From the IMG/VR virus record IMGVR_UViG_3300010938_000114, positions 1 to 20,308 of that record: DNA of 20,308 bases. One strand, 5' to 3'. Positions 4,647 through 8,037 of this stretch are shown here, piece by piece; positions within the stretch are counted from its first letter, which is position 1; every line of letters begins with the position of its first letter. The notes under the pieces were generated by a model. That model saw only the letters and a list, made by a program, of their open reading frames with translations, was not told where the DNA came from and did no database searches. The stretch is from a virus. A program made the translations under genes and the position numbers.

Positions 4647-4919
4647 TTAAAAATCCCTAATTTCTCTCCAAGTAACGTTACAAACCCCTTCAACCTTTTC
4701 TTCTTTCTCCATGCACACAGGCACCCCCTTATATAAAACATTGAGGTATCCAAGTTCGCTCATTTCCTTATCAGCTATAAGCCCCCCGTATCGACTTTCA
4801 TATAACGGCTTAATTTCGTTGATTAACTCTTCAAACTGTTGCGGCCTTAAGAAAAATACTGGGGATAGGCACTCTGTTGATAACTCTAAAATCAGCTCTT
4901 CAAGTTTAGCTGCTTTCAC
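4647..4919 (-). CDS. Hypothetical phage protein
   Basis: 90 residues, not recognised. It starts with GTG and overlaps the previous stop as GTGA (4916-4919), so it is translationally coupled to the 327-residue gene. The N-terminal half is a charged amphipathic helix (KLEELILELS). The middle has QQFEELINEIKPLYESRYGG, and the C-terminal half carries a few Cys residues (PVCMEK, GVCNV). No membrane segment or catalytic motif is visible. Overlapping frames on both strands here are shorter and lack ribosome sites. It sits between the unknown 327-residue gene and the DUF1064 nuclease, so an early function is likely. Confidence 0.6.
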   Translation of the reverse strand: MKAAKLEELILELSTECLSPVFFLRPQQFEELINEIKPLYESRYGGLIADKEMSELGYLNVLYKGVPVCMEKEEKVEGVCNVTWREIRDF

Positions 4920-5899
4920 CTAAAGTACCCTTCCCTAAATCCTGCATTGATTATTCCAAGAGTTTTCCCGTTTGCTATGATTTTCAATAGCCCATGCTCT
5001 TTAGCAAGCTTGTAGCCCCATTTTTCAAAGTAATACCGATTCTTTCCTTCATGTTTACCAGCCCATTTAGCACTAGCAACCGTTTGATTTCCTTTGACCA
5101 AATGAACCGCATCAGCTTTCTCAGCTAAGATTAACATTAACTTATTTGAGCGATTTAATCCTTTAATATCTTCAGCGTGGCTTTTTGCTAGATCGCCTTT
5201 GTTAATACTAGTTTTTCCTTTGTTTGTAGCAAGAAAATGAATCGACTCTAAAAGCTCTTTTGTAGGCCTTACATCTCGCTTGTCTCGTGGTGGTCTTGGT
5301 GATTTATCATTGCGAAGTAGATTGAGTTGGTAACACCAAAAGAAAAACACATCAGCTTTTTTGTATATTGTTTTATCTTGAGATACATCTGAATCAAAGC
5401 AATTTATACCATCATAACTAAAATTAAATTTTCCTCGTGGTGGTAACATGTTGTCGTCTCTGTGCACTTCGTTTTTGTATTTGTTTGAAATCCTGCCTCC
5501 ACCTTTAATCCATGGGGTGTTTACTATCTCAACGTTCTTCATCCCCTCGTACACCTTAGCTACTTTGTCGAGCAACGAATCAGGATTAGATAGTTTATGC
5601 TCACAAGCTGGCGACACTTCAAATTGAATCTTCGGAAACTCTTGAGCCAACTTTTTTACCTCACGAGATTGCTCTAAGATTTTCTCATCTTTGCCATTAA
5701 AATCGTGATCATCTTCCCACCAAAGTTGAAATCTTATGAATTGACATTTACCTGTTTTAAGTAGCTTTTTTGCTACACCTAAAGATGACCCAAAACCATC
5801 GACGTATGAGAAAAATCCAGCAGCCCACCCATCTGGATGAGTTTTTAGTATTACTTCTCCGTATCTAGCACCAGCTAGATAATCAATTCCGTATTTCAT
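4916..5899 (-). CDS. Conserved-looking phage protein of unknown function, possible TIM-barrel glycosidase-like fold
   Basis: 327 residues with a strong ribosome site (AAGGAGGTATAATG). Alternating strand/helix texture in the first two thirds suggests an alpha/beta barrel. Strand-end motifs are FIRFQLWWEDDHD (about 54-66), IQFEVSPACEH (about 91-101), VEIVNTPW (about 123-130), NFSYDGINCFDSD and VFFFWCYQLN. The pattern of a strand ending in acidic or aromatic residues, with a Glu in SPACEH, resembles glycoside hydrolases, but I cannot assign a family. The last 90 residues look like a beta-rich accessory domain (ADAVHLVKGNQTVASAKWAG, then GKNRYYFEKWGYKL). There is no signal peptide. A cell-wall-degrading role would suit a phage, yet the gene lies among early DNA genes. 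The existence of the gene is firm; the fold is a guess. Confidence 0.75.
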   Translation of the reverse strand: MKYGIDYLAGARYGEVILKTHPDGWAAGFFSYVDGFGSSLGVAKKLLKTGKCQFIRFQLWWEDDHDFNGKDEKILEQSREVKKLAQEFPKIQFEVSPACEHKLSNPDSLLDKVAKVYEGMKNVEIVNTPWIKGGGRISNKYKNEVHRDDNMLPPRGKFNFSYDGINCFDSDVSQDKTIYKKADVFFFWCYQLNLLRNDKSPRPPRDKRDVRPTKELLESIHFLATNKGKTSINKGDLAKSHAEDIKGLNRSNKLMLILAEKADAVHLVKGNQTVASAKWAGKHEGKNRYYFEKWGYKLAKEHGLLKIIANGKTLGIINAGFREGYFR

Positions 5900-5963
5900 T
5901 ATACCTCCTTAAATCCGTATAATCCCCCAATCTAAGCTCTGACATTAACCCAATGGCTTTCAT
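5883..5963 (-). CDS. Tiny coupled ORF, 26 codons
   Basis: The ATG at 5963 overlaps the methyltransferase stop as ATGA. The frame fills the 60-bp gap between methyltransferase and the 327-residue gene and ends 17 bases inside that gene. The product begins MKAIGLMSELRLGDYTD and ends RRYNEIRN. It has no membrane segment. The downstream gene's AAGGAGG lies inside this ORF, so its translation could keep that site open. The support is the stop-start overlap that neighbouring genes also use. The length is short enough for chance. Confidence 0.35.
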   Translation of the reverse strand: MKAIGLMSELRLGDYTDLRRYNEIRN

Positions 5964-6775
5964 AATACTTTCTCTTTTCTTAACCCCGCTAACGTCATAA
6001 AAGCCTCTCTTGCCTGTAACGGCACAACCGCATTTCCTAAACATCTAAGTTTACCCAATCTGTTGGATACCCCATGAGCCACGCGACCCACATCGGGTTC
6101 AACTGTCCACCAGTTTTTGTTAAAAGTGTCTCGCTGTTCCGCCTTAATTCCGCAGGACTCCTCCCGTTGTCTTTCCAGTCTCTCGAAGTCGAAGTCGGAT
6201 AGGTCCTCACGTACATTTCTAAATTTCTGTTGTTCTGATTCCTGCTTTTTGGATCGTAAGATGCTTCTTTGCTGGGCCTCCAGGTTGTAGCCGTCGGAGT
6301 AGGCAAGTAGCCACCATCTATTCCTTTTATGATTCGCTCCGACTTTTGAAGCTGATAAATCCGTCCATCGACAATCATACCCCTCATCGGCCATTGCTTT
6401 AATAACTGTAGATAGTCCACGGGTTCGGATAGCAGGCACGTTTTCCAAGAAGACAAAGGAAGGCTTACATTCGCGAACAAGTCTAATGATTTCGAAAAAT
6501 AATCTGCTTCGCTCTCCCTCCAAGCCCTTGCCACGGCCCGTAATCGAGATGTCCTGACATGGGAACCCTCCGTAAATGATGTCGATATCGGGTAGTCCTT
6601 TGAGCGTTCTAACGTCATCCCAAATTGGTGCTTTTGGCAGTAATCCTGAAACCATATTTTTAATGAGAACCGCTTGTGCGTACTCGTCATTTTCGCAGTA
6701 GGCGACTGGGGTAACCCATGGACTAAGGGCGAGCGTGATTCCTCCAATTCCTGAAAATAGATCCAAGCCATTCAC
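5960..6775 (-). CDS. C5-cytosine DNA methyltransferase (Dcm-type)
   Basis: 271 residues; transfers methyl from S-adenosylmethionine to C5 of cytosine. Motif I is GLDLFSGIGG (3-12). Motif IV is GGFPCQDIS with catalytic Cys73. Motif VI is FLENVPA (Glu111). Motif VIII is HKRNRWWLLAY (149-159), and motif X is LRCLGNAVVP (243-252). Between VIII and IX only about 60 residues remain, rich in Gln, Glu, Arg and Ser, where the target-recognition domain should be. That is shorter and less structured than usual. It starts with GTG at 6775, eight bases after AAAGGAG. A second long frame (6037-6771) lies entirely inside it. In a phage early operon the likely role is protecting phage DNA from host restriction. 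It is followed by an ATGA-coupled tiny ORF. Confidence 0.93.
   Translation of the reverse strand: MNGLDLFSGIGGITLALSPWVTPVAYCENDEYAQAVLIKNMVSGLLPKAPIWDDVRTLKGLPDIDIIYGGFPCQDISITGRGKGLEGERSRLFFEIIRLVRECKPSFVFLENVPAIRTRGLSTVIKAMADEGYDCRWTDLSASKVGANHKRNRWWLLAYSDGYNLEAQQRSILRSKKQESEQQKFRNVREDLSDFDFERLERQREESCGIKAEQRDTFNKNWWTVEPDVGRVAHGVSNRLGKLRCLGNAVVPLQAREAFMTLAGLRKEKVL
6037..6771 (-). CDS. Overlapping gene inside the methyltransferase, alternate frame
   Basis: 244 codons without a stop, fully nested in the methyltransferase gene in another frame of the same strand. Its ATG (6771) is four bases after the methyltransferase GTG, 12 bases from the same AAAGGAG. The product looks like a protein rather than random sequence: FTEGS (66-70), SWKT (108-111), WPMRGMIVDGRIYQL (127-141), LPTPTA (156-161), RDWKDNGRSP, and a C-terminus GGQLNPMWVAWLMGYP. 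From memory, this series of motifs (SWKT, WPxxGM, PTPxA, GGQLNPxWVEWLMGxP) recurs in phage proteins annotated as hypothetical or methyltransferase-associated; I could not search. The terminal WLMGYPTDWVNLD is read from the bases that encode AHGVSNRLGKLRCL of the methyltransferase. Alternative: a non-translated frame kept open by codon bias. Confidence 0.6.
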   Translation of the reverse strand: MAWIYFQELEESRSPLVHGLPQSPTAKMTSTHKRFSLKIWFQDYCQKHQFGMTLERSKDYPISTSFTEGSHVRTSRLRAVARAWRESEADYFSKSLDLFANVSLPLSSWKTCLLSEPVDYLQLLKQWPMRGMIVDGRIYQLQKSERIIKGIDGGYLPTPTATTWRPSKEASYDPKSRNQNNRNLEMYVRTYPTSTSRDWKDNGRSPAELRRNSETLLTKTGGQLNPMWVAWLMGYPTDWVNLDV

Positions 6776-6870
6776 GTCAATTTCTCCTTTCTGTTTCTAC
6801 ATCTCCTAATTTCATCTGCCAACCTTTCTTGCTCTTCTACTAGCTCTCTTTGTCTAGCCTCAAGTTTAAT
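6772..6870 (-). CDS. Short coiled-coil reading frame without a normal start codon
   Basis: The frame reads IKLEARQRELVEEQERL then ADEIRRCRNRKEKLT and stops at a TGA that overlaps the methyltransferase GTG as GTGA. Heptad-like charge patterning makes it look coded. No ATG or GTG is present; only ATT at 6870 or TTG further in could start it. It overlaps the end of the pentapeptide-repeat gene in the -1 frame. Its EIRRCRNRK tail matches the EIRRCKNGK end of the metalloprotease gene at DNA level. It may be a remnant of a gene end, a frameshift extension, or a coupled leader peptide. Confidence 0.3.
   Translation of the reverse strand: MKLEARQRELVEEQERLADEIRRCRNRKEKLT
6798..6813 (-). repeat. Copy 2 of a 16-bp duplicated gene-end/ribosome-site segment
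   Basis: The minus strand reads GAAATTAGGAGATGTA, identical to 7350-7365, with weaker similarity for about ten more bases. Both copies lie just ahead of a gene start and include a TTAGGAG ribosome site. In copy 2 an extra AAAGGAG follows before the methyltransferase GTG. Confidence 0.8.
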
Positions 6871-7346
6871 TTGTCGCCTTTTCTAACGTCTTTTCTAACG
6901 TCTATGCCCGTAATTTCAAAAAATATATCAGCGTCAAAGTTTGGAAGATTAAGGAATTTCTGTTTATTCTCTTCAGTATCCTTCTCCCAACCCCGCTGCC
7001 ACATCTCTTTATAGTCATAAGTTTTTGAGTATCCACCAACCACCTGGCATTCCGGGTGTTTAGCTTTTTCTTCTTCAGTCATATCTTGTAAATCAATCCA
7101 GCTTGCTTGCTCGTAGTTAGACAAATTCGGATGATCGATCTCATCCCACCTTAGATTTGTCTCTTTATTAAAAAGCCGTACAGTCGGCTCATTTGTACAA
7201 AATATTCCTGAATTTCTGTTTCCAGAGTTCCCATACCCTGAGTTCCTGTTTCCTGAGTTCCAGTCTCCTGTGTTACAGTCTCCTGTGTTACAGCTTCCTG
7301 AGTTCCAGTCTCCTGAGTTCCTGTTTTTTGAATTATTACTTTCCAT
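6840..7346 (-). CDS. Pentapeptide-repeat (NSG-type) phage protein
   Basis: 168 residues from the ATG at 7346. The longer frame back to 7406 is rejected because TTAGGAG sits eight bases before 7346. Residues about 8-46 are tandem five-residue repeats of the form N(S/T)Gxx: NSGDW, NSGSC, NTGDC, NTGDW, NSGNR, NSGYG. They could form a short right-handed helix. The C-terminal 120 residues are a globular domain with FNKETNLRWDEIDHP, WIDLQDMTEEEKAKHP, YKEMWQRGWEK and FLNLPNFDADIFFEITGI. This architecture is known from phage early proteins of unknown function. The start overlaps the metalloprotease stop by 11 bases. A role as a DNA mimic, as in Qnr-type pentapeptide proteins, is only a thought; the repeat block here is short. 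Confidence 0.8.
   Translation of the reverse strand: MESNNSKNRNSGDWNSGSCNTGDCNTGDWNSGNRNSGYGNSGNRNSGIFCTNEPTVRLFNKETNLRWDEIDHPNLSNYEQASWIDLQDMTEEEKAKHPECQVVGGYSKTYDYKEMWQRGWEKDTEENKQKFLNLPNFDADIFFEITGIDVRKDVRKGDKLNLRLDKES
7206..7330 (-). repeat. 15-bp coding repeats of the pentapeptide block
   Basis: About eight imperfect 15-bp units (AACTCAGGA / AACACAGGA cores on the minus strand) encode the NSG/NTG pentapeptides. Two adjacent units reading CCTGTGTTACAGTCT on the plus strand are nearly identical, so the number of repeats probably varies among relatives. Confidence 0.85.
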
Positions 7347-8037
7347 TTTTACATCTCCTAATTTCGTTTTTACTTTTTTCCGAAAATCTCCACATCTCTG
7401 GAGCACTTTGACTTGAAAAACCTTTTACATTGAAAAGACTATTCATGATGAAATTATCTTCTGGTTCATCATGAGTTAAGCCGAGAATTAAATGCCCCCA
7501 CTCGTGAATCATAATTGCTACCGATTGAGGTATTCTGGTTTGGCCGTTAATTTGAGTTTTTAGAAAGTGCCCGTAGCCGATCCCCGCAATAATACCAAAA
7601 TTTCTAAATAGCTTAATGTCGCGATAGCATTGAACCTGAGCCGCCCCCATAAACCAATAAGTACCGTTGTGATACATCGGATTAGCTACTAGGTAATGTG
7701 CGACACCATCGCGCCTTGAGTAGCCGTTATTATTAATCCTATCGTATATTGCTCTAATGCATTGTGATGGTGTTGCACTCCAACTAGAGCATAAATGGAA
7801 ATATGCAAAATTGTTTTCAAAGGTATTGCAGTACCTAACTTTTTTTATTCGTAACTTTACGCCCGTTAGATTTCTAAAAATTCTCTTTGCTCGATCAACT
7901 TCTTGTGCCCTATCATCAAAAGAGCCAAATAGCGTGGTGTCTACGTCGCCATAAGGCATATACACTCTCATTCTAGGCGTTGCTAGCGCGCAATAAGTCA
8001 ACAAAAGTATTGTTAAAAGTTTTCCAATCACTGCCAT
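7336..8037 (-). CDS. Secreted zinc metalloprotease-like protein (HEWGH)
   Basis: 233 residues. Residues 1-19 form a signal peptide: short N-region with Lys6, hydrophobic LLTILLLTY, and a C-region CALA before TP. The zinc-binding helix is HEWGHLILGLTHDE with His178, Glu179 and His182. A third His is at 189, one residue later than in the metzincin pattern HExxHxxGxxH. IMNS (197-200) could be the Met-turn. Five Cys in the mature part (70, 83, 93, 137, 229) suggest disulfides and an extracytoplasmic location. The reaction would be peptide-bond hydrolysis of unknown substrates, perhaps on the host surface or in the medium. GAGGAC precedes the ATG, inside the preceding 37-codon ORF. Secreted proteases are unusual in a phage early operon. 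Confidence 0.8.
   Translation of the reverse strand: MAVIGKLLTILLLTYCALATPRMRVYMPYGDVDTTLFGSFDDRAQEVDRAKRIFRNLTGVKLRIKKVRYCNTFENNFAYFHLCSSWSATPSQCIRAIYDRINNNGYSRRDGVAHYLVANPMYHNGTYWFMGAAQVQCYRDIKLFRNFGIIAGIGYGHFLKTQINGQTRIPQSVAIMIHEWGHLILGLTHDEPEDNFIMNSLFNVKGFSSQSAPEMWRFSEKSKNEIRRCKNGK
7350..7365 (-). repeat. Copy 1 of the 16-bp duplicated gene-end/ribosome-site segment
   Basis: The minus strand reads GAAATTAGGAGATGTA, identical to 6798-6813. Here it encodes the EIRRC of the metalloprotease C-terminus and at the same time supplies TTAGGAG for the pentapeptide-repeat gene starting at 7346. Confidence 0.8.

Follow-up and report, generated by a model that had tools for sequence, protein, structure and literature searches.

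Long same-strand gene overlaps are thought to be rare in dsDNA phages, and gene finders suppress them. In overprinted viral genes, such as the Rz/Rz1 pair of phage lambda, a second frame on the same strand is born on an older gene. Overprinted genes of viruses have been reviewed (PMC8227390). The pair described here, consisting of a phage C5-cytosine DNA methyltransferase (Dcm) and a second frame that we call alt, is of the same kind, but it differs from those examples in being double-coding over nearly the full enzyme gene (735 of 816 bases, alt lying wholly inside Dcm) and in being kept across a whole clade, whose members occur in phages and prophages from several bacterial phyla.

Another protein read in a different frame of a phage methylase gene is the ShiLan domain, an HNH endonuclease concealed in an alternate frame of an actinophage methylase; it constitutes a mobile insertion some 200 codons long (PMC11855218). 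In contrast, alt overlaps the conserved motifs of the methylase itself. We therefore rejected alt as a hidden endonuclease of the ShiLan type, as it gave no HNH match and its frame spans the enzyme motifs and not an insertion. The C5-methyltransferases of restriction-modification systems belong to the same family (PF00145) as the gene under alt; unlike the alt-bearing Dcms, those of the sampled genomes carry no alt, and their stops in the +1 frame are at the null expectation.

From the sequence comparisons given below, we consider it likely that alt is a genuine and ancient gene, which arose by a single overprinting in the common ancestor of phage-type C5-methyltransferases and was retained by selection, with a role as partner of the enzyme as the likeliest function. 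Dual coding, distribution and single-clade origin are established by computation, the last on a provisional tree. Alt/Dcm is a widespread case of overlap, found in one clade of a common enzyme whose bearers are phages or prophages from several bacterial phyla, and its hundreds of examples at varied divergence offer a natural laboratory for two proteins evolving in one DNA. As most changes affect both proteins, phage Dcm mutants may have been misread.

The Dcm gene and its nested frame

The window, which is the whole stretch of DNA analysed, covers 20,308 bases of a virus record with a length of 29,287; its plus strand encodes terminase, portal and head proteins. Its Dcm gene matches PF00145 and displays the catalytic motifs GGFPCQ, ENV, RxRxW and GN, so that it was classified as a phage-type Dcm. 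The first-pass annotation had noticed a 244-codon frame nested in this gene, and the frame was recovered as described, in +1 relative to Dcm (Table 1).

Table 1. Positions of the Dcm/alt features in the window and of the motif IV insertions in related loci
Feature	Position	Strand	Remarks
C5-cytosine DNA methyltransferase (phage-type Dcm)	5960..6775	-	271 aa, GTG start; PF00145 E 1.2e-40, PHROG_363 E 6.7e-64
Overprinted second gene (alt)	6037..6771	-	244 aa, +1 frame of Dcm; PHROG_1008 family, E 1.1e-15; open frame, stop depletion, conserved in 202 viral and 48 bacterial loci, dual-frame constraint
C-terminal signature GGQLNPMWVAWLMGYPTDWVNLDV of alt	6040..6111	-	opposite Dcm motifs IX-X
Tandem start GTGAATG	6769..6775	-	Dcm GTG 6775-6773, alt ATG 6771-6769; from sequence
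Shine-Dalgarno-like AAGGAG	6784..6789	-	8 nt before Dcm GTG, 12 nt before alt ATG; from sequence
FP/CQ insertions in relatives	L018:3214-3240, L023:1016-1042, L286, L289, L297-L304, L337, L341, L345, L351, L356, L369, L372		Dcm motif IV

The motifs quoted in that annotation are present in alt and are the alternate-frame reading of Dcm motifs: EGSHVRTS of alt lies on GGFPCQDIS of Dcm, LPTPTA on LLAYSDGY, and WVAWLMGYPTDWVNL on GRVAHGVSNRLGKL. The best-conserved part of alt is the region of its C-terminal signature, whose W and L residues are more conserved than the Dcm residues encoded by the same bases.

Directly upstream of Dcm, the minus strand encodes a pentapeptide-repeat-like protein (6840-7406; PF01469, E 7e-8). 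A 233-aa protein on the same strand (7336-8037) gave no Pfam match; it contains HEWGHLILGLTHD, which is near the metzincin zinc-protease motif but one residue longer. Downstream of Dcm lies a 327-aa protein (4916-5899, minus strand) without a Pfam or PHROG match.

Database matches and protein properties

The first-pass annotation mentioned phage proteins with the same order of motifs, and these exist as PHROG_1008. This family, which is labelled "DNA methyltransferase" in the category "other", matched 27 of 28 alt proteins with a best E-value of 8.7e-35, and did not match the window Dcm. Judged by these profile matches, PHROG_1008 is the alternate-frame family and its label appears to be borrowed from the gene underneath, a mislabelling that is corrected here. 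Going by the same comparisons, the alt family is already in the databases, but misnamed or missed. Among 19 annotated loci, none lists both genes, and in five (L004, L005, L007, L206 and L209) the deposited gene is the alt frame while Dcm is unannotated; in L007, the alt product is even named DNA-cytosine methyltransferase. The alt product itself has no PF00145 match of the kind that defines the enzyme, and by profile it is not a C5-DNA methyltransferase.

Pfam, NCBIfam, PADLOC and the PDB provided no family for alt beyond weak or chance matches, and the PDB search revealed no solved relative. In the literature covered, mainly open-access journal papers, no description of a gene overlapping a phage Dcm was found, which is weak evidence of novelty. 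Proteins of the alt family are mostly basic, with a median pI of 8.6 (9.4 for the window alt), and contain 4.2% Trp. Two AlphaFold models of alt reached a pLDDT of 60 and a pTM of 0.25-0.29, and had in common only a helix or two within the first half of the protein, a beta hairpin formed by WPxxGMxxxG and, at the C-terminus, a helix on LNPxWVEWLMG; in prediction, alt is thus poorly foldable.

Distribution and origin

Using profile models, we found alt open over Dcm, always in the +1 frame, in 202 of 202 viral loci with any match; these come from a set of 203 (one had no match) that includes many near-duplicates and loci fetched by Dcm similarity. The same arrangement in +1 was seen in all 48 bacterial contigs, which represent many phyla, and in eight phages. 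Likewise, 11 phage and E. coli prophage loci (L204-L214) carry alt over Dcm, some of them broken. Most loci are metagenomic contigs.

Copies of alt encoded away from Dcm, whose lack had been named beforehand among the outcomes counting against the proposal, were not found in viral contigs, bacterial genomes, phages or plasmids, as far as a profile made from overlapping copies can reach. Wherever overlap was checked, alt sat on a Dcm; the plasmid matches, counted by annotation alone, are annotated as Dcm in three of four cases. This constant linkage may reflect only that alt cannot leave Dcm.

In a tree of 87 Dcms, provisional as it was obtained by a quick method, the 64 alt carriers form one group with an SH-aLRT support of 99, and L401, which has a weak and partial alt match, falls just outside this clade. 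Alt therefore has a narrower spread than Dcm, as expected of an overprinted gene, being confined to one Dcm clade in this quick tree. Since Dcm is the wider and, by inference, the older family, alt was overprinted on Dcm, probably once. A single origin is the most likely reading because the carriers are one clade and restriction-type Dcms are devoid of alt. The earlier suggestion that the family arose by overprinting of phage Dcm genes is thereby supported, for a coding family restricted to this clade.

Possible role of alt

Alt occurs only with Dcm and is mostly basic, tryptophan-rich and poorly foldable, and on these grounds we tentatively propose that it might function jointly with the methyltransferase, either as its binding partner or as its regulator. 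A bolder version, to which we give somewhat less credence, is that phage-type C5-methyltransferases as a class could consist of two proteins, the second subunit being written in the +1 frame of the first as an obligate overprinted partner, which would have been retained throughout the history of the clade and overlooked through its methyltransferase label. The functions named in the first-pass annotation (inhibitor, specificity partner, anti-restriction factor) are guesses.

Next in rank, and rather unlikely in our view, is a job independent of methylation, for example in counter-defence or host takeover, with alt residing in Dcm only because it was born there. Phage Dcm genes are often found among early accessory genes, and alt is open in L075, L235 and L251, loci with single stops that interrupt Dcm. 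In L201 (1306-2235), the Dcm frame even has two stops, one of them replacing the catalytic Cys codon, while alt is open over about 290 codons, a hint that alt may be of use even when Dcm is inactive. However, an independent job would sit uneasily with the lack of a stand-alone alt in all four groups of sequences searched, and the PADLOC defence families gave only weak matches, mostly to methyltransferases. Moreover, the mostly basic pI argues against a DNA mimic like Ocr or ArdA; an acidic anti-restriction protein of this type was disfavoured, as strong acidity is lacking in the family and in the window alt. The partner role is the one that we rank first.

Start sites and expression

In the window, the Dcm and alt starts are 4 nt apart behind one Shine-Dalgarno, in the order AAGGAG-8 nt-GTGAATGG. 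Among 179 non-redundant relatives, alt starts at Dcm codon 2 in 84, of which 81 use ATG, mostly as NTGAATG, and 53 of the 84 starts have an SD-like site ahead. The alt frame opens after the Dcm start in 68 of the 179, often with an ATG near Dcm codons 52-62 that is preceded by GGAG. In the window and about half of the relatives, ribosomes at the single Shine-Dalgarno would have two places to begin, the Dcm start and, 4 nt past it, the alt ATG, and one mRNA would yield both proteins through the shared site; most of the remaining relatives seem to have their alt start within Dcm, often near codons 52-62. Start anatomy alone is no proof that alt is translated.

The codon-2 start is not universal, as the 68 later-opening frames illustrate, and alt might instead be made chiefly as a +1 frameshift extension of Dcm, that is as a trans-frame protein. 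This is improbable given that about half of the relatives have the start just past that of Dcm, often behind an SD-like site, and that many of the remaining ones offer candidate internal ATGs with GGAG; in addition, no common slippery site stood out on non-systematic inspection.

Selection on the second frame

As a null model, the synonymous codons of each Dcm were permuted, which preserves the Dcm protein and its codon usage. The +1 frame of the window has no stop where 8.1 are expected (none of 500 shuffles was as low), while the +2 frame, serving as control, has 19 versus 17.4 expected. The absence of a stop over 735 bases, as first reported, was thus borne out; the "AT-rich genome" in which it was said to occur is only mildly so, the Dcm region having 46% G+C. 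Across 44 related loci, the +1 frame within the overlap holds 0 stops against 253 expected, a zero that is partly built in as the overlap is delimited by the open frame, yet the overlap is most of Dcm in each case. The +2 frame of these loci is at chance level (659 versus 643), and loci fetched with the Dcm protein alone revealed the same stop pattern. The frame is accordingly longer than expected by chance given Dcm.

Substitutions point in the same direction. Among 24 independent close pairs, the difference is 0.305 at sites where a change is silent in Dcm but alters alt, and 0.90 at doubly silent sites. The pSN/pSS ratio was 0.34 (0.30-0.39) in Dcm/alt close pairs versus 0.76 (0.68-0.88) in 79 pairs of neighbouring genes, which is clear in direction but rough, given only 148 doubly silent sites that are close to saturated. 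Similarly, dNN/dNS was 0.45 (0.36-0.54) in Dcm/alt close pairs versus 0.78 (0.69-0.88) in neighbouring genes, and 77 wider Dcm/alt pairs agree with this constraint. The second frame is thus under purifying selection. Stops in relatives and a lack of excess synonymous constraint were two of the three outcomes named beforehand as counting against a second gene, and neither was observed.

In 179 non-redundant genes, 11 sites have a +1 entropy more than 0.3 bit below both flanking Dcm residues, compared with two such sites in the +2 control. One of the 11 is a stop beside the Dcm start. The others are ten alt residues more conserved than Dcm, namely the P of WP, the T and P of the first PTP, the whole second PTP, which lies in a variable region, and the W, W, L and W of WVEWLMG..GW.

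RNA elements can also constrain Dcm-silent sites, but selection on RNA or DNA (structure, protein-binding sites) in place of the alt protein is very unlikely: the constraint is frame-specific, stops being absent over some 250 codons of +1 but not of +2, evolution is fast at sites that are silent in both frames, and the start codon with its SD-like sites is preserved. Scarcely credible, and refuted as far as sequence allows, is an alt frame that is kept open merely by the amino acids of Dcm or by codon bias, with no protein selected: although most alt motifs overlie conserved Dcm motifs, which forces some resemblance, and entropy under the codon permutation is lowered in +2 as well as in +1 (as expected from shared ancestry, and given no weight), such an origin is ruled out by the 253 stops that the permutation predicts and by the restriction-type Dcms, which share the motifs but have stops at chance level, and it disagrees with the constraint on Dcm-silent sites and with alt residues exceeding Dcm in conservation.

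Interrupted Dcm frames

Relatives outside the window carry insertions exactly between FP and CQ of the Dcm catalytic motif (motif IV), and 33 distinct genes of this type were found in three scans for insertions of up to about 30 bases, the first of which required TGA while the other two did not. The insertion is 6 nt long in 24 of the 33 genes and 7-12 nt otherwise. It opens with a stop codon, immediately following the Pro codon, in 30 and closes with a further Pro codon, ahead of the Cys codon, in 20, as in CCA TGA CCA TGC; the layout of the latter is CCN-stop-CCN-TGC. Behind the inserted stop, the Dcm frame has 22 stops versus 164 expected over 23 genes, and most have none.

Stop-hopping had no known natural in-frame case in 2016, and the bypassed stretch of T4 gene 60 is tied to a homing endonuclease (PMC5009743). 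The FP/CQ insertions resemble a stop-hop layout and a mobile bypass cassette as in T4 gene 60. By this analogy, they are a candidate for natural stop-hopping, as a lead only: over a third of the insertions have no matching landing codon, and recent homing into still-intact Dcm genes would likewise leave the Dcm frame open behind the stop. In 12 of the insertion-bearing genes, an HNH-type reading frame related to phage endonucleases lies just upstream in the Dcm frame.

Other interruptions were seen in single loci or groups of isolates. L234 has an insertion, TAACTACAG, just past the Dcm PCQ (position 2481), with alt open across it, and is another case of a stop-bearing insertion at the catalytic motif. 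In an E. coli PCP07014 prophage (L205:1477-2278), Dcm (by TGA) and alt are broken at the same spot by stops a few bases apart. In Mycobacterium phage Ochi17 and its relatives (L214:1501-2260), a frame change about 123 codons into Dcm divides it into two annotated genes; its C-terminal half continues in the +1 frame, an arrangement common to many isolates.
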